The notes under the pieces are model-generated. The model worked only from the letters and a program-made list of their open reading frames with translations. It was not told the origin of the DNA and did no database searches. Shown here in pieces: positions 4,585-13,586 of a DNA stretch of 64,000 bases. How positions within the stretch are numbered: position 1 is the stretch's first letter; the number at the start of each line of letters is the position of its first letter. Both the position numbers and the translations under genes were made by a program. Source of the DNA: Myxococcota bacterium (GTDB lineage Bacteria > Myxococcota_A > UBA796 > JAJRTE01); the NCBI GenBank assembly GCA_024278455.1, contig JAJRTE010000165.1, positions 1 through 64,000 of the forward strand. The letters run 5' to 3'.

Positions 4585-4930
4585 GCCACTCCTTCCGATG
4601 GGACTTCGATGCTACCGCGCCGTTCGACCAGAACCCCCGCGCGCCGGTCATCGCCGGACGGGAAGCGGCGAGAGATGGCGACAGCTCGATAGTCGCAGCA
4701 AGCGCGAGGGAGTGCAAGGCGATTGCTGCCGCCGTGCTTCGAGCCGTCCTCCGGGAGTGTTGCGTGGGCGCCGTACCGGTCGTGAAATGCTGTTGGTGAG
4801 ATAGTGCTCCGGCGTGAGGCACAAGCTGTCATCAAATGCAACTATTGACATTTCATCTGATTGAGTGGTAGGTAAGTTCAGGCGGTCGCATGTCGCGGCC
4901 GCGCATTCGCCGTCGACAAGAGAGGTTTTC

Positions 4931-5785
4931 ATGAAACACATCAGTTTGTTGTTGCTGCCGACACTTATTGGCGCCGCGACGATGGGCATCGCCGAATGCG
5001 AAACCGGGTCCGAGCACGAGGGAATGGTTCGGGTGGAAGCCGGGACGTTCCTGATGGGGATTTGCAACGAGAAGACAAATCCGCCGTGCCGTCCCGGAGA
5101 CCCGGGGTACAATTCCTACGACTACCCCGATGTCGCCTACGAGGACGAGGTGCCTTTGCACGAGGTATACCTGGACGCCTACGACATCGACGCCTACGAA
5201 GTGACGGTGGCCGCGTACCGGGCCTGCGTCGAAGCCGGTGCGTGCGAGGCGCCGGGGGATTGGGAGGGGTGCAACTGGGGCCGCTCCGGGTACGAAAACC
5301 ACCCGGTCAACTGTGTCGGTTGGGCCGATGCCGACACCTATTGCCGGTATGCCGGCAAGCGGCTTCCCACCGAGGCCGAATGGGAGAAGGCGTCTCGAGG
5401 CACGCAGGGGCAGAAGTATCCCTGGGGGAACGCCCCGGCGACTTGCGAACTCGCCAACTTCATCGACAGCTACGATTCGGGGACCTACTGCGTGGGGGAG
5501 ACCACCCCGGTGGGGGCTTATCCGGCTGGCGTATCTCCTTATGGGGCCTACGACATGGCGGGCAACGTGTGGGAGTGGGTCGCGGACAAGTACGGGTTCA
5601 ACTACTACCAGGTGTCCCCGGAGGCCAATCCGCAGGGCCCGGCGAACGGTCTCTATCGGGTCATTCGGGGAGGCTCCTGGGACGACTACCCGTCCTACGT
5701 CCGCTCCGCCAACCGCGACAGTTTCGAGCCGGACAGCCGCCCGAAGGGATTCGGATTCCGCTGCGCCGTGACCGTGGCCGACTAG
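4931..5785 (+). CDS. Formylglycine-generating-enzyme/SUMF1-like protein, exported
   Basis: Signal-like N-terminus MKHISLLLLPTLIGAATMG; VEAGTFLMG, GKRLPTEAEWEKASRG, MAGNVWEWVAD, IRGGSW, GFRC. Confidence 0.87.
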   Translation: MKHISLLLLPTLIGAATMGIAECETGSEHEGMVRVEAGTFLMGICNEKTNPPCRPGDPGYNSYDYPDVAYEDEVPLHEVYLDAYDIDAYEVTVAAYRACVEAGACEAPGDWEGCNWGRSGYENHPVNCVGWADADTYCRYAGKRLPTEAEWEKASRGTQGQKYPWGNAPATCELANFIDSYDSGTYCVGETTPVGAYPAGVSPYGAYDMAGNVWEWVADKYGFNYYQVSPEANPQGPANGLYRVIRGGSWDDYPSYVRSANRDSFEPDSRPKGFGFRCAVTVAD

Positions 5786-6052: not shown

Positions 6053-6745
6053 ATGCCCTGGGGGGTTGAACCAATCGTCTGGACGGCCATGGCTTTGAAA
6101 ATTCAACGATTTCGCCGGCGGAAGCACGCGCGGGACCTGTCCTTCGACGAACTTCGCCGGAGGTGCATGGACGGGTCCGGGCAGGCCTGCAAGGTCTTCG
6201 TGGCGCGCTTCACGCCCCTGGTGTGGCGCACGGTCGTCATGCAGATGCCTGGTGCGTCGCTGCAGGACCAGGAAGAAGCGGTGGCGAACACCTTCTCGAG
6301 GCTGCTTGCAAACCGCGCGGAACTTCTCGGGAAGTACAACCGGGCGCTGGGGTTGTCGCCCGAATCCTACATTCGCAGGCAAGCCGTGTACCAGGCCAGG
6401 AACCGGCGGCGGAGCCTTAACACGGTCGCCAGGCGTGTCGAGGAACCATTCGAGATCCTGGAGGATGGTTCGCCGGGACAGGACACTTGCCCGGACCCGC
6501 GACTAGACCCCGAAGGGCTGCTGATCGAGCGCCAGGAGCTGGACCGGTTGATCCGCGCCCTCGAGGCCAGGCTTCCGCCGGAAGTGATCGTGACCTTTCA
6601 CTATCTCTACGAGAACGGCATGACCCCGGTGGAGGTCGCGAAGATCCTCGGCTGCTCTCCGGACATGATCTATGTCCGCAGGAAGCGCATCGTGGCCGCG
6701 ATGAAGGAGATCATGGCGGAGCGCAACAAGAGGGGAGGGCCATGA
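6053..6745 (+). CDS. Sigma-70 family (ECF-like) RNA polymerase sigma factor
   Basis: Sigma2-like region (ACKVFVARFTPLVWR) and sigma4-like HTH (MTPVEVAKILGCSPDMIYVRRKRI); ATGA overlap with next gene. Confidence 0.8.
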   Translation: MPWGVEPIVWTAMALKIQRFRRRKHARDLSFDELRRRCMDGSGQACKVFVARFTPLVWRTVVMQMPGASLQDQEEAVANTFSRLLANRAELLGKYNRALGLSPESYIRRQAVYQARNRRRSLNTVARRVEEPFEILEDGSPGQDTCPDPRLDPEGLLIERQELDRLIRALEARLPPEVIVTFHYLYENGMTPVEVAKILGCSPDMIYVRRKRIVAAMKEIMAERNKRGGP

Positions 6746-9744
6746 ATCCGACCGAGCGTGTCGCCCGGGGCGTCGTGGCCGGCGTCGCGGCCTTTTTCGC
6801 AGGCTGCCTCGCGGTGGCAATCCAGGCCTGTCGTCACGACGATACGGGACCCAGGCAGGTCAGCGTGCACTTCATCGGTCCGGTCAAGCTCTACGAGCCC
6901 CGGGAGGGGAGGAGCACGGAACCCGAATGGGCCGAGGTGTCTTCTACCGGACGCTCACCGCTACCCCGCTATCTCACCGGGCAGAAGCTCGGCCTTCTCT
7001 TCGACCCTCTTCCGAAGCAGGGGCGCCAATGCGACCCGTTCGCCGCCGGCACGCTCGAGCTTGCCCTCGAGTCGCCCGGGGGAAACACGGACGTGTCGGT
7101 CACCATACCACTGGAACCTCCCTATCTCGAGCAGGCCGGGTCGAGCTACCGTCTCTTCCCGGTGCCGCAGGCCATTCCGGCGCGACCCGAGGATGCGTTC
7201 GTCTCCATGCGTCTGCCCGAGGAGCCCGGTCTGTGGCACCTGTGTCTTGTGTGGCGTTGTGGACGAACGGAGCGCGGCGCCCGGCGGGATCGCTTTCCGT
7301 TCGTGGTCGGCCGGAGGGCTGATGAGAGTGCCTGCGATCCCTCCATCTGGATGCGCCTGGACACGGTCGATGATCGTCCTCCTCGAGACCAGCTCGAGGT
7401 GTTTCGGGCCATCCTGGACGAGCCGCTGTGCCTCGTCGATCGGCTGTGGGTCACCAAGTACTATGTCCAGACCTTGAGATCGGCAGGCGACTATCCGCAT
7501 GCCGAGTCGATGGCACTGACCTGGGCGAACCTGGCCCAGAGAGCGGGATTCCCTTCCGAGGCGGTCCTTGCCTTGAACGCAGCCCATGAGGCGGCTCGCG
7601 ACCGGGGGAATCTCCTCCAGGCGCTTTCCTACCTCGATCGTTCCCTGGCGCTGGCCAGGTCGTTGGACTACCAGGTCCGCTATCCCGAAGAGTATTTCAG
7701 CCGCGCGTGGACGCTGAACAAGCTGGGCAGACTGCTGCCGGCTCTCGAGATGGCGGTTGAGGCGGAAGACCAGGCCCGGCGCGTGGGGAAGCGGTACTTT
7801 CGGCTCGAGGCCGTACGTCTGAAGCTGTCGTTGTTGCAAGCCCTCGGTCACCACAGGCTGGTCCAACGTTACCTGGAAGAAGTCCTTGCCGAACTTCGGG
7901 AGGACGAGTCGGCCACGCTGTACAACAACATGGGGTGGCTGATTCTCAGGGGCGTGGAAGCCGGCGTGCCGCTCGACAATGACAGGCGGGAAGCGCTGGA
8001 CCTGGCCCAGGCCCTCTTCGAGAAATCGTTGCGAGGAGGGAAGCAATCGGATCCCTACCGTGCGGGGACTGTCGCCAACCTGGCCTACGTGGCCTTGCTC
8101 GAGGGAGACCTCGAGGCGGCGCGTCGTTTGCTGTCACGTGCCGAGCAGTTGCCGGCCCCATCGGACCCCGAACTCCATCTCTTCCTGGCCCGGGTGAACG
8201 CGGAGCTGGCTCTGGCCGGCGGAGATTCCCTCGATGCGTTGCAGCGTTTCGGTGCTCTCGAGCGGGAGGCCGAGGAGCACGGCCTGGTGAAGTATGCCGC
8301 GGAAGCGGCCCATGGGCAGGGCGAGGCGCTGCGCGCCAGAGGAGCGCTCGAGGACGCGATTCAAGCGTTCGACCGCGCACTTCGATGGGTCGAGGCCAAC
8401 GACGCCATTCCGTCCCCGCTCCACGAAGCGACGCTCCTGGCCGACAGGGCCGCCTGGGAGGCTCGAGCCATCCTGACACGCCTGGACCTGCACCGTGACT
8501 TGGAGGCGCTCGACCAGGTGGAGCGCTGCGCCTGGGCACGATGGCGTTCCCAGGGGAGAGCCGCGCGACGCGACCGTCTCACCGCTCGGGAAACAGCCGA
8601 ACTACGAAAACTGGAAGACACGCGCCAGGCCCTGGACCAGGAGATTGTTGCTCTCCGCAGGGTTCCGTCGCCCGGCTCCTCCCGAGTGCTGCGCGCCAAG
8701 GAGGAGAGACGGGAGGCGACCTGGGCGAGGATCGAAACGATCCTGGGAGACGCGCAGCGGGATGTTCCGCCCTTCCTCGAGATTTCCCGGTTGCGTGAAG
8801 TCCTGCCGGACAACGGAGTCCTGGTGCGTCCGGCCATCTTCCCCGGCGAACTCGTCGTCTGGACGGTGTCCCGGGAGGCCGTTTCCGTGCGTCGCGTGCC
8901 CATCGCCCGGGCCGCGCTGGAGACCTTGGCGTTCGAGTGGATCGAGGCTTGCCGGCGAGACGCCGAATCCTCCGCCGGTGCGAGGTTGAGCCGGATGCTG
9001 CTCGAGGACCTTGCCGACGCGTCGGCAGTCGTCGTGGTGGCGGACGGCGTGCTCCGGGCCATACCCTGGAGCGCGTTGCCGGTGGGCGATCGTCCTCTCG
9101 TCCAACAGCACGACCTGCTGGTCGTCCCGAGTCTTTTCTGGACCCCGCCTTCCCCGGGGAAGCTCGAGGGGACGTCGCTGATTGTGGTCGATCCGAATCA
9201 CGACCTGGCCGGCGCCGCTGGAGAAGGAGGCCGGTTGCAGGCCATTCTCCCGTCCCCACACCTGCTGGCCCGGTCGGGCGCGACGAAAGAGGCCGTCCTG
9301 ACCGCCATGACAGACGCTTCCCTGTTCCATTTCGCCGGGCACGCGGTCATCGACGAGGAGCGCCCTTTCCTCTCCTTTCTCGGGCTTGCTCGAGGAGAGC
9401 GGTTGACCAAGATGGACATCCGCGGGCTCCGGCTCCCCGGTCCCCTCGTCTTTCTCAACGCCTGCGGCGCAGGACAGGTCTCACGGGAAGGTGGGGGCGC
9501 GTTGGGCATCGCGGATGGTTTCGTGGCATCCGGCGCTCGAGCCGTGGTTGCCACGCTATGGGATGTGTCTGACTTGGAGAGTGCAAAGGTCTCCCCGCTG
9601 TTCTATCGACACCTCGAGGCTGACGACGCACCTCCGTTCGTGGCGTTGGGCAGGGTGCAACGCGACCTGATAGCAGGACGGGGCGGGGAAAGTTGCGCCA
9701 GGCGCTCGGTATGGGCGGGCTACCTGGCGCTCGGTGCCCCGTGA
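6742..9744 (+). CDS. TPR-CHAT domain protein (caspase-like fold) with N-terminal membrane/lipoprotein anchor
   Basis: C-terminal CHAT motifs FHFAGHA (His) and FLNACGAG (Cys), then ARAVVATLWDVSD; central TPR-like helices; N-terminal hydrophobic segment VVAGVAAFFAGCLAVAIQAC. Confidence 0.87.
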   Translation: MNPTERVARGVVAGVAAFFAGCLAVAIQACRHDDTGPRQVSVHFIGPVKLYEPREGRSTEPEWAEVSSTGRSPLPRYLTGQKLGLLFDPLPKQGRQCDPFAAGTLELALESPGGNTDVSVTIPLEPPYLEQAGSSYRLFPVPQAIPARPEDAFVSMRLPEEPGLWHLCLVWRCGRTERGARRDRFPFVVGRRADESACDPSIWMRLDTVDDRPPRDQLEVFRAILDEPLCLVDRLWVTKYYVQTLRSAGDYPHAESMALTWANLAQRAGFPSEAVLALNAAHEAARDRGNLLQALSYLDRSLALARSLDYQVRYPEEYFSRAWTLNKLGRLLPALEMAVEAEDQARRVGKRYFRLEAVRLKLSLLQALGHHRLVQRYLEEVLAELREDESATLYNNMGWLILRGVEAGVPLDNDRREALDLAQALFEKSLRGGKQSDPYRAGTVANLAYVALLEGDLEAARRLLSRAEQLPAPSDPELHLFLARVNAELALAGGDSLDALQRFGALEREAEEHGLVKYAAEAAHGQGEALRARGALEDAIQAFDRALRWVEANDAIPSPLHEATLLADRAAWEARAILTRLDLHRDLEALDQVERCAWARWRSQGRAARRDRLTARETAELRKLEDTRQALDQEIVALRRVPSPGSSRVLRAKEERREATWARIETILGDAQRDVPPFLEISRLREVLPDNGVLVRPAIFPGELVVWTVSREAVSVRRVPIARAALETLAFEWIEACRRDAESSAGARLSRMLLEDLADASAVVVVADGVLRAIPWSALPVGDRPLVQQHDLLVVPSLFWTPPSPGKLEGTSLIVVDPNHDLAGAAGEGGRLQAILPSPHLLARSGATKEAVLTAMTDASLFHFAGHAVIDEERPFLSFLGLARGERLTKMDIRGLRLPGPLVFLNACGAGQVSREGGGALGIADGFVASGARAVVATLWDVSDLESAKVSPLFYRHLEADDAPPFVALGRVQRDLIAGRGGESCARRSVWAGYLALGAP

Positions 9745-10019
9745 GCGAGGGCGGCGGGGGATGATGGGCGAAGGGCTGGCCGTTCTCCGTTGCCCTTCAG
9801 GGGGCCGAACGGGTCGCTGAAGAAAAAAAAGAGTGGCGCTATTCGGCTTTCAGCAGGTGAACGGCATATACAAAAGTAGGAAGATCCGTTGCTGGCGCCG
9901 TGCGGCGCGGAGGAGGACCGGCAGTGGACGGCAGGCCCGACGAGAGTCGCCGAACACGGCGTGGCCGCTGCCGGCCCATCCAGGGCCTTCGGAACAGCTT
10001 CAGGAGAGATGAGGTCGTT

Positions 10020-10808
10020 GTGGACGAGCAACACGGAGCGCATGATAGCGGGGACGTGGACGATCTGCTCGAGGAACTGGCTCGAGCGCGAAGTCTGCAG
10101 CGGGAGGCGGATTCCGACTGTCCTTCCCGCGAATTGCTCGAGAGACTGCGCGCCCATTCTCTGTCTGCCCGCGACGAAGCGGTGGTGGTTCGGCACCTGG
10201 CCGATTGCGCCGTGTGCCGTGACCACCTGGCATGTCTCGACGTCGAGGTTCCGGGCCTGCCTCACATTGCACAGCGGCAGGTCTTCCGCCTTTTCAGACC
10301 GCGAACGCCCGGATGGGCGTGGCTCCCGGTCCCGGTGATGGCCGCCGTCGCTGCCTTGCTGTTGACCACGTTCAACCCTTTTTCGTTCGTGGAAGAGGAT
10401 CTCCCTGGCTATGTCTTGGGGTTCGAGGGGTACGCCAGGGAAACGCGAGGAGAGACGCTGCACGGATTCGAACTGCCGGTCTACGGTCCAGGCAGCGACC
10501 TCGTGCTCCTGGCGCGGCCGAAGCAAGGAGAGGCGTCGACATCTCCCACCGTCGTCGCCTACATCGAGGGACCAGCCGGCGTGTTCGAGCGCTTCCCGGT
10601 CGATCCCGTGGTGACCATCACCGACACCGGGCTCATCGAGTTGCGGGTTCGCGCGGGCGAACTCCTCGGGGACCACTACGGGCGGCACAAGATCCGGTTG
10701 CTCCTGCTCCCCCATGGCACCCGGCCACCCGAACGGTTGAACGGCAGCTTTTACGCGGAGTCGGCCCGGTTGCTCGAGGGAGAACTGGACTACCGAGCAG
10801 CCCGGTAG
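10020..10808 (+). CDS. Putative zinc-binding anti-sigma (ZAS/zf-HC2) factor, single TM
   Basis: Hx3Cx2C motif RHLADCAVC followed by TM WAWLPVPVMAAVAALLLTTF and extracytoplasmic C-terminal domain; GTG start preceded by GGAGAG; the longer ORF begins at 9900. Confidence 0.68.
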   Translation: MDEQHGAHDSGDVDDLLEELARARSLQREADSDCPSRELLERLRAHSLSARDEAVVVRHLADCAVCRDHLACLDVEVPGLPHIAQRQVFRLFRPRTPGWAWLPVPVMAAVAALLLTTFNPFSFVEEDLPGYVLGFEGYARETRGETLHGFELPVYGPGSDLVLLARPKQGEASTSPTVVAYIEGPAGVFERFPVDPVVTITDTGLIELRVRAGELLGDHYGRHKIRLLLLPHGTRPPERLNGSFYAESARLLEGELDYRAAR

Positions 10809-10830
10809 GCTTGCGAAAAGGAGGTGTTCC

Positions 10831-12783
10831 ATGAACGGGAAACAGGCAGTGGCCGAGTGCATGGTCTTCTGCTGTGTTCTGCTGGGCGCCGGTCCTCCAG
10901 CCCTCGCGGCGCCTCCGCTCTTTTCGGTGCCGGAAGGCTGTGACGATCGGGTCGTGGTCGCCTACTACGCCGACTGCGCGTGCCGTGTGGACGACGGGGA
11001 GCTGGAAGATGTCGAGGTGGAGGTTGGCAAGAGCGCATCGAGGAACGCCGTGGCGAAAAATGCCCCTCTCGAACCCCCTGCCGGGGACTTCGAGTCCTGC
11101 GCCGGCCTGGTGATGCCGGACGGCCTCGTGGCGGAACGGCTCCACAGTTGCGAAACCATCGCCCAGGTGCAGGCCTTGTTCCTCGGTGACAAGGGGGACG
11201 GTCTTGCCGAAATCCTCCAGGATGCCCTCGTAGTCACGCGCGCCGACGGCGGGAAGCTCACCACGGAGGATTTACGCAGCCTCGAGAAGGCCGGGCTCGA
11301 CGAGTTCGAGCCGGTATGTTCCATCACGTTCATGGGCGATACGTCCGCCTCGCTCACCGGCATGGACTGGTGGCAACTGGTCGAGACCGGCGCGTCGGAC
11401 GCCGTTCACCATGTGCAGGAGAAACTGTCGCACGAATCGGCTGACACGCCGCCCAGGATCGCGGTCATCGATTCAGGGGTCGATCCCATCGTGGGGCAAG
11501 GGCTGCTCCAGGAGGGATGGGCATTCCCCGCGTGCAGCAAGGAACAGTGCTGGCTGATCGACGAGCAGGGGCATGGCACCTCCGTGGCCTACCTGGCCCT
11601 CGAGCAGGCAGGTTCGCTGGCCGACATCGTGTCGATTCGGGTGTTAGACGACAAGGGGGTGGGCAGCCAGAAGGATCTGGCAATCGGTATCCTGAAAGCG
11701 GTGGAACTGGGCGCCGACATCCTCAACCTGAGCCTGGCGTGGCCGGCGGACGTGACCCGCGATGACGACGGGTTCCCGGGGTACGTGGCGTTCGCCTTCG
11801 CCGCTGCAACCTCCGCGGGCGTCAAGTCCTTCGTGGCCGCGGGCAACCGGTGTACTTTCGACCCCGAGGGGTCTTGCGGGCGATTCCAACCGGCAGTGGC
11901 GCCTGAGGTCTTGGGAGAATACCCGCTGGACATCGTTGCCGTGAGCGGTGTGACGCCTTGGGGGACGCCGAGTTCGCAGGCTGTCGGCGGCGACGAGGTG
12001 GATGTGTGGGCGCCCTCCGAGTTCATCTGCTCCAGGACGTCGCCCGGTCCCACGGTCGAGGAGAGCTGGCACCGGATGAGCGGCACCTCCTTCGCCGTGC
12101 CTCAAGTGAGTGGCAGCCTCGCCCTCCTCCAGGCCTGGCGCGCCACCACGGAACTGTCTTTTTCCGACGATGAATTGGTGAAAGCCCTCCTGAACAGTGG
12201 CGAAAAGAACGTAACACAGCCGAACCTGCTGGACTTGTGCGCGGCGTTCAAGGCGTTGGGTAACCCGATCCCCGAATGTGAGGCCTGGGCAGGCAGAGCC
12301 GCGCCCCAGGATGAGAGCTGCTTCGAAACAGAAGCGAACGAGGGTATGGAGATCAAAGACAACGGCTTGGCGGATGACTTCGTTCATCCGGATCTCTCGG
12401 GCCAGGGCTTCTGGTGCGAACAACAAGAGATCCACGCTCAGCCCGACAATCCACCGTGCACGTCATGCGACTATTGCCGGCGGGAGACCGGGGACGCGGA
12501 CCTCACCCTCGAGTTGAACCTGCGACAGGTCTGCGTCTCCTTCCCCCACCTCTACCTTCGGCTCACGTTCGAGGACCAGCAGTATGTCTACCTCGACCTG
12601 GGTCCAGGCGACTTCGACGGCCACCCGGTGCGCCACGTGTCGGTCACCTTCCCTGAAGGAAACTGGCCGGAGGTCGAGGAAGTATGGTTGATGGTGGGCA
12701 ACGAGAACCACTGGGCTGGCGCCCCCCTCCTCGACATCGGCGTGGTGAATGACAGCGAGCGTCAGGTCACGCGATGTGACTGA
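10831..12783 (+). CDS. Secreted S8 family subtilisin-like serine protease
   Basis: Asp (AVIDSGVD), His (GHGTS), Asn (VAAGN), Ser (MSGTSFAVPQ) motifs; signal peptide; strong SD GAAAAGGAGGT. Confidence 0.9.
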   Translation: MNGKQAVAECMVFCCVLLGAGPPALAAPPLFSVPEGCDDRVVVAYYADCACRVDDGELEDVEVEVGKSASRNAVAKNAPLEPPAGDFESCAGLVMPDGLVAERLHSCETIAQVQALFLGDKGDGLAEILQDALVVTRADGGKLTTEDLRSLEKAGLDEFEPVCSITFMGDTSASLTGMDWWQLVETGASDAVHHVQEKLSHESADTPPRIAVIDSGVDPIVGQGLLQEGWAFPACSKEQCWLIDEQGHGTSVAYLALEQAGSLADIVSIRVLDDKGVGSQKDLAIGILKAVELGADILNLSLAWPADVTRDDDGFPGYVAFAFAAATSAGVKSFVAAGNRCTFDPEGSCGRFQPAVAPEVLGEYPLDIVAVSGVTPWGTPSSQAVGGDEVDVWAPSEFICSRTSPGPTVEESWHRMSGTSFAVPQVSGSLALLQAWRATTELSFSDDELVKALLNSGEKNVTQPNLLDLCAAFKALGNPIPECEAWAGRAAPQDESCFETEANEGMEIKDNGLADDFVHPDLSGQGFWCEQQEIHAQPDNPPCTSCDYCRRETGDADLTLELNLRQVCVSFPHLYLRLTFEDQQYVYLDLGPGDFDGHPVRHVSVTFPEGNWPEVEEVWLMVGNENHWAGAPLLDIGVVNDSERQVTRCD

Positions 12784-12992
12784 CAGCCGTCGGTGCGACA
12801 CCTACCATCGTACCCCCTTCCAGGGCGCTCTCATCGGAAATCATCTCCCGGAAACTCCACATTCGAAACAAAAACCTCCGTCCATTCGGTTTTCGGCATG
12901 CCGCCCGACTATTCCTCAGTAGAAGGGCGAAATGAGTCGTTTCATGCCCTGCTGAAAAACCACCAACAGTCGTGAGAAAAGGAGGTTCTATC

Positions 12993-13586
12993 ATGTTGAG
13001 ACTGCGTGCGATTCCATTTGTCGCCTTGATGCTTGGCAGCAGCCTGGCTTTCGGGCAGGACAAGCAGACGGAGAAGGACGACCGCAGGTGCGGCGAGCCG
13101 ATCGTCGGAGAAGTGATCGCCGCGAAGACCCACTCATACGATACTATGTACGAGTACTACATCGACACGGCGCAGCCCATCGATCTCGACAGCGACTGCT
13201 ATCGCTGGTGGGATGACGATGTGGAGTCCGCCTTCTGGGCCCCTTATTTCTCCGGCTGCCGGCTCCTCTCCGCCACGCTGACCATGAAGTTCGGTGACGT
13301 GGACTTCTACGACCAGGACGCATTCCATGCCGAGCTGTACGTGGTGCAGTTCGGCCCCGGCTCCCTTGACGTCCTCAAGGGCTACAACAATTCGTGGGAA
13401 GGGATGTCCTGGGACGTGAAGGATCGGATCCCCACCAATGAGGACGTCATGGACATCGCATTCGCCGTGAACGTCGACGCTGCACACGACTACCCTCACT
13501 GGGCCGTCTACCTGGACACCGCCCTGCTGAACACCCATTGGGGTTGCTACTACGTCGTCGAGGAAATGGCGGACATGAAGAAATAG
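12993..13586 (+). CDS. Small secreted protein of unknown function
   Basis: Signal peptide MLRLRAIPFVALMLGSSLAFG; strong SD AAAAGGAGGT, the same as upstream of the preceding protease gene. Confidence 0.6.
   Translation: MLRLRAIPFVALMLGSSLAFGQDKQTEKDDRRCGEPIVGEVIAAKTHSYDTMYEYYIDTAQPIDLDSDCYRWWDDDVESAFWAPYFSGCRLLSATLTMKFGDVDFYDQDAFHAELYVVQFGPGSLDVLKGYNNSWEGMSWDVKDRIPTNEDVMDIAFAVNVDAAHDYPHWAVYLDTALLNTHWGCYYVVEEMADMKK

Follow-up and report, generated by a model that had tools for sequence, protein, structure and literature searches.

Recurrence of a module of sigma factor, anti-sigma factor and predicted exported CHAT protein in Myxococcota and its possible role in envelope sensing

Does a row of genes for a sigma factor, an anti-sigma factor and two putative exported proteases constitute a signalling system, and which of the proteins could then release the sigma factor? 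This question is raised by a locus of a Myxococcota bacterium (assembly GCA_024278455.1, contig JAJRTE010000165.1), of which positions 1 to 64,000 were analysed; this whole stretch of DNA is called the window. Five consecutive genes on the + strand (6089-13586) encode an extracytoplasmic function (ECF) type sigma factor, a TPR-CHAT protein, a transmembrane zinc anti-sigma factor (ASIG), a secreted subtilase (S8) and a small secreted protein. A preliminary description had suggested a CRISPR-independent circuit, in which proteolysis of the anti-sigma factor by CHAT and/or the subtilase sets the sigma factor free, and this interpretation is partly supported. The gene row it had listed was borne out by family matches, motifs and the ATGA overlap, as were the ECF-like sigma factor, the intact His and Cys motifs of CHAT, the signal peptide and triad of the subtilase, and the small secreted protein. 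Since the set is found again in numerous related bacteria, a genuine system for envelope sensing is probable. The reading we favour, to which we give an even chance, is that a recurrent envelope-sensing module is present here as one operon-like copy, and that in this module a ligand-sensing, CHAT-driven site-1 step inactivates the anti-sigma factor, with S8 serving as partner or output.

The genes had been expected to co-occur in other genomes, and sigma, anti-sigma, CHAT and S8 are indeed found together across the phylum, in shuffled orders. A profile made from three anti-sigma sequences gave matches in 38 of 377 genomes of the phylum, and a profile from 20 sequences in 45 at E 1e-6. Among the first 20 neighbourhoods obtained with the three-sequence profile 15 contain CHAT and 14 contain S8. 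In the total of 61 neighbourhoods, which were picked by the anti-sigma sequence alone, sigma adjoins in 54, CHAT in 48-49 and S8 in 34. In the window and in a sister operon of the same genome sigma is present too, with the CHAT gene placed between the sigma and anti-sigma genes. In at least 27 genomes the module keeps its content, although its genes are arranged in more than 15 different ways. The typical arrangement is sigma, anti-sigma, CHAT, S8, and that of the window (sigma, CHAT, anti-sigma, S8) is unusual. The association of sigma, anti-sigma and CHAT is real, and chance is refuted for these three. Around 44 CHAT proteins without neighbouring sigma no S8 was found (0/44; Fisher p 7e-14 in comparison to the modules, the modules stem from the whole phylum but the control from the class alone, which makes the two sets taxonomically different). 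The tree indicates that the module CHATs group without any sigma-less CHAT, with a modest support of 0.59 at the base, while the pair from the window and the sister operon branches apart. A second group of sigma-linked CHATs (L066, L079, L080, L082, L084, L086, L087) is separate with a support of 0.999. These seven loci from the same class encode sigma, a zinc or related anti-sigma factor and an exported CHAT, and no S8.

Relatives of the locus are also encoded elsewhere in its own genome. The sister operon (L031, C93) contains a sigma factor, a TPR-CHAT protein and an anti-sigma factor which are 44%, 42% and 36% identical to those of the window, followed by a phospholipase-D (PLD)-like protein. 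A third and more distant locus (L032, C47) consists of sigma, a zf-HC2 protein and TPR-CHAT. With 36 sigma matches in 7.03 Mb, five of the nine CHAT/caspase places have a sigma gene within 3 kb (P ~9e-6); one of these five, on C105, should rather be named a C14 caspase. In that row (L048 4043-7344) sigma, an anti-sigma-like protein with one transmembrane segment and a lipoprotein caspase (PF00656, E 8e-16) follow each other; a C14 caspase thus stands in for CHAT in an otherwise equivalent scheme. On C277 (L043 5346-15227) a TPR-CHAT lipoprotein, a sigma-like open reading frame and a SAVED-CHAT protein come one after the other, and behind them an S8 is encoded on the other strand. This row is possibly a cyclic-nucleotide-linked relative.

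The reading frame of the sigma factor is open from 6053, with ATG 6089 as the likely start and the stop at 6743-6745 (gene 6089..6745). The protein reaches 45.7 bits against TIGR02937 (sigma70-ECF; cut-off 42.9, E 5e-12) and is thus of the ECF type; homologous sigmas adjoin CHAT/anti-sigma in L031, L032, L092, L095 and L096. By ATGA its gene overlaps with the gene of the TPR-CHAT protein (6742..9744), the ATG of which is located at 6742. The CHAT domain (8977-9735) matches PF12770 with E 9.5e-38, in addition to the TPRs, and the motifs FHFAGHA with the catalytic His867 (codon 9340..9342) and FLNACGAG with the catalytic Cys908 (codon 9463..9465) are intact. A His/Cys dyad in the CHAT fold is characteristic of clan-CD CHAT proteases, and the alignment shows it without exception in the module copies (48/48). 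The AlphaFold2 model (pLDDT 79) comprises a signal helix, an immunoglobulin (Ig)-like domain, a TPR superhelix and the CHAT domain, and a Foldseek search placed Csx29 first (8eey, E 4e-16), DdvA second and then separase.

A feature overlooked in the preliminary description is the N-terminus of the CHAT protein. The sequence MNPTERVARGVVAGVAAFFAGCLAVAIQAC aligns with the signal peptides of module CHATs, and Cys30 of its lipobox (codon 6829-6831; probable lipoprotein signal peptide 6742..6831) is nearly invariant in the module family. A lipobox of the signal peptidase II type was recognised in 35 of 49 module CHATs and a signal-like segment in 8 more; these export calls derive from a heuristic of hydropathy and lipobox, not from SignalP. 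The CHAT protein of the window is therefore predicted to be an exported lipoprotein. Neither with the CHAT protein nor with a two-sequence alignment was a relative found in the named genomes and viral contigs.

For the anti-sigma gene an open reading frame of 9900-10808 is listed, but the alternative GTG start at 10020 is likelier (10020..10808), since it has a good ribosome site and the similarity to homologues begins there. The inner, N-terminal domain carries the Hx3Cx2C motif HLADCAVC (10194..10217), and a single transmembrane segment follows the motif (10323..10373 by hydropathy scan; helix 104-117 of the model). One such segment is present in the anti-sigmas of all 20 modules that were scanned. 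AlphaFold2 predicts a four-helix inner domain, the transmembrane helix and an outer Ig-like beta-sandwich (pLDDT 78, outer domain ~90). The motif and the transmembrane segment named in the preliminary description are present in the window protein, but a regular expression scan revealed that the zinc motif is missing from most homologous anti-sigmas. In Pfam the window protein gives no match to zf-HC2, its counterpart in the sister operon one below cut-off (E 1e-3), and that of the third locus one over the cut-off. A profile of the anti-sigmas matched neither DdvA nor Csx30 among the solved chains. Due to the predicted signal peptides and the single transmembrane segment, both proteases and the outer domain of the anti-sigma factor would share one compartment, with sigma across the membrane.

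The divergence of anti-sigma and CHAT is correlated with r 0.80 overall and 0.62 among paralogues of the same genome, in comparison to 0.62 and 0.27 for sigma and anti-sigma. These numbers suggest, without proof, that anti-sigma and CHAT are the directly coupled pair. For CHAT and S8 the correlation is r 0.81.

The subtilase (10831..12783) matches PF00082 with E 8e-14, and alignment to subtilisin identified the complete S8 triad D214/H248/S420 together with the oxyanion N339. The 34 module S8s, which are predicted to be exported as well, have kept His and Ser in every case, Asn in 33 and Asp in 30 with four alignment gaps. That they might be dead for want of GTSxxxP was ruled out, as the alignment reads G[TS]S with the triad kept. 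In the tree the window S8 groups with S8s of its own genome, apart from the usual module S8; a common lineage with the latter is ruled out by this tree, for which few other S8s were sampled. Its nearest relative is an orphan on C235. This exported S8 (L107 7685-9604) has no sigma, anti-sigma or CHAT that could be found nearby. About one third of the CHAT modules lack S8, and the sister operon encodes a PLD-like protein (L031 11780-13456) where the subtilase would be expected. The subtilase is thus not a fixed part of the system. The last slot varies, as the different S8 branch in the window and the PLD in the sister operon show, and S8 is therefore more likely accessory or output than part of the core switch. 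In modules without S8 (L165, L166, L167, L168, L194, L195) the gene after CHAT often encodes a small Cys-bearing lipoprotein, which is lineage-specific.

In Myxococcus xanthus the pair DdvS/DdvA controls a CRISPR-Cas system. Like the window, it combines an ECF sigma factor with a transmembrane anti-sigma factor tied to a TPR-CHAT with His and Cys (DdvA structures 8ROT, 8RW5). DdvA, which is deposited as a transmembrane anti-sigma factor and carries a homologous CHAT domain, is the nearest solved relative by sequence and the second by fold; a profile of the CHAT domain matched it with E 1e-15 and Craspase with E 1e-8, with H and C kept in both. However, DdvA is one polypeptide of anti-sigma, transmembrane segment and TPR-CHAT, whereas the window has two proteins, the anti-sigma factor and a CHAT that carries a signal peptide and is predicted to be lipid-anchored, and adds an exported S8. 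In both systems TPR-CHAT lies on the outer side of the membrane, for the window as predicted from lipoprotein-type signal peptides. The module can be regarded as a relative of DdvA that is split into two proteins, anchored by lipid and supplemented by an exported protease. The preliminary description had left its novelty open; the fused anti-sigma/CHAT protein DdvA was already known. DdvS turns active upon inactivation of DdvA, for which the signal was unknown in 2015 (PMC4374960).

The type III-E Craspase or CASP system (Cas7-11, Csx29, Csx30, CASP-sigma) also links a TPR-CHAT protease to an ECF sigma factor and its inhibitor Csx30, which is cleaved by Csx29 (PMC10028731). The preliminary description had likened the CHAT protein to Csx29. 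The location does not match, since Csx29 is cytoplasmic and RNA-activated (PMC10028731), while the window CHAT as a lipoprotein would be found on the same side as the Ig-like outer domain of the anti-sigma factor. Csx30 is a different type of inhibitor than the window candidate with its one transmembrane segment and Ig-like outer domain. Neither Cas7-11 nor other CRISPR genes occur among the classified neighbours, the whole window not having been searched gene by gene, which fits the proposed independence of CRISPR. In CalpL/CalpT/CalpS of type III CRISPR a protease cuts an anti-sigma factor and frees an ECF sigma factor (PMC11417357). Unlike the window, this system relies on a cyclic-nucleotide-activated SAVED-Lon protease without CHAT domain and without exported protease; none of the five window proteins contains a SAVED or Lon domain. 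Craspase and CalpL act on sigma inhibitors in the cytoplasm (PMC10028731; PMC11417357). RseA/DegS/RseP resembles the window in its single-pass anti-sigma factor with an outer domain, and the order of site-1 and then site-2 cleavage is presumed for both. The site-1 protease is of the HtrA type in that system, whereas the putative candidate of the window is the CHAT lipoprotein. In the view of Strecker et al., Craspase resembles DegS/RseA by convergence (PMC10028731). No description of a split sigma/anti-sigma/CHAT/S8 module was found in the open-access literature, subscription papers being outside the search.

Gene content, conservation and active-site residues are established by sequence and the membrane sides by prediction; for sigma binding, cleavage, site-2 release and the regulon we infer the following course. 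The anti-sigma factor would hold sigma at the inner membrane, and the TPR/Ig part of the CHAT lipoprotein would sense an envelope or extracellular cue. The activated CHAT domain would then act in trans and cleave the anti-sigma factor in its outer domain as the site-1 step, and a housekeeping site-2 protease (M50) together with ClpXP would finish the release of sigma. The freed sigma factor would transcribe its regulon, probably including its own operon, and S8 (or PLD) would be accessory, either as a maturation partner of CHAT or as an exported effector made upon activation. More generally, CRISPR-free exported CHAT lipoproteins could be in-trans, ligand-controlled site-1 proteases of transmembrane anti-sigmas, often joined in a cascade by an exported subtilase, and represent the envelope branch of the type III-E sigma/inhibitor/TPR-CHAT logic. 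This extension is tentative, and we think it less likely than not. Several points weigh against CHAT as the site-1 protease. Binding of sigma to anti-sigma and cleavage by CHAT are both deduced from sequence, the export of CHAT stems from a heuristic prediction, and conservation of the dyad equally fits another CHAT substrate. About 12 of the 61 anti-sigma loci have no detectable CHAT nearby, some of them lying at contig ends. The co-divergence is also explicable by inheritance as a unit and by the wider dynamic range of fast-evolving proteins. In the window the CHAT and anti-sigma genes are separated by 275 bp (9745-10019), so that strict co-transcription of the anti-sigma gene with sigma and CHAT is uncertain. 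An M50 site-2 protease is present, which says little because M50 proteases are universal.

Sigma and anti-sigma could also sense in another way and merely switch on CHAT and S8 as outputs, that is exported proteases (or PLD) that would attack other cells, secreted proteins or the envelope, for example during predation or competition among kin. This would agree with the prediction of both as lipoproteins or secreted proteins and with the variable last slot (S8 of more than one branch, PLD, small secreted proteins). However, CHAT is present in about 80% of the loci and co-diverges with anti-sigma more than sigma does, and the CHAT domain of DdvA sits inside a protein deposited as anti-sigma factor; we consider the output function rather unlikely. 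The invariance of His and Cys in 48/48 copies is not demanded by binding alone, and thus argues against a non-proteolytic co-sensor, in which the TPR/Ig lipoprotein would bind the outer domain of the anti-sigma factor and alter its grip on sigma without cutting. The Ig-like outer domains resemble binding domains and the PDB titles describe the solved DdvA as a transmembrane dimer, yet the probability of this explanation appears low to us.

A two-step periplasmic cascade, in which one of the two proteases (S8 or CHAT) matures or activates the other and this other one then cleaves the anti-sigma factor, would explain the parallel divergence of CHAT and S8, the restriction of S8 to sigma-linked CHATs among the CHAT loci surveyed, and the preservation of both active sites. 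But as a third of the CHAT modules do without S8 and the sister operon has PLD instead, S8 cannot be essential everywhere, and such a cascade is likewise improbable. That the genes are unrelated chance neighbours could be suspected from the atypical gene order of the window and its S8 from another branch. With a content conserved in at least 27 genomes and a CHAT in the sister operon that is 42% identical, this is very hard to believe; for the small secreted protein a chance placement is still possible.

Should CHAT indeed be the enzyme that cleaves the anti-sigma factor, it would represent a caspase-like type of site-1 protease, for which the literature searched gives no other example. The widespread CRISPR-free sigma/anti-sigma/TPR-CHAT module is a possible source of the Craspase wiring, and it ties DdvA to a family of separable proteases that are open to assays in vitro.

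The small secreted protein (12993..13586, start ATG 12993) has 197 aa and a signal peptide. It has no Pfam or NCBIfam match and no homologue among 91 relatives, and small proteins adjoining other modules are unlike one another across distant modules. Together with the small Cys-bearing lipoproteins it could be a possible substrate or a released signal. No Rfam match was obtained within the window, and PADLOC reported no specific defence system for its proteins, with S8 alone matching generic subtilase and IetS. The flanking genes were classified by family as transporter, FGE-sulfatase and M14 peptidase. Exported FGE-sulfatase (SUMF1-like) proteins flank two of the modules, the one in the window (4865-5785) and another one (L151 5119-8508), which may be coincidence.

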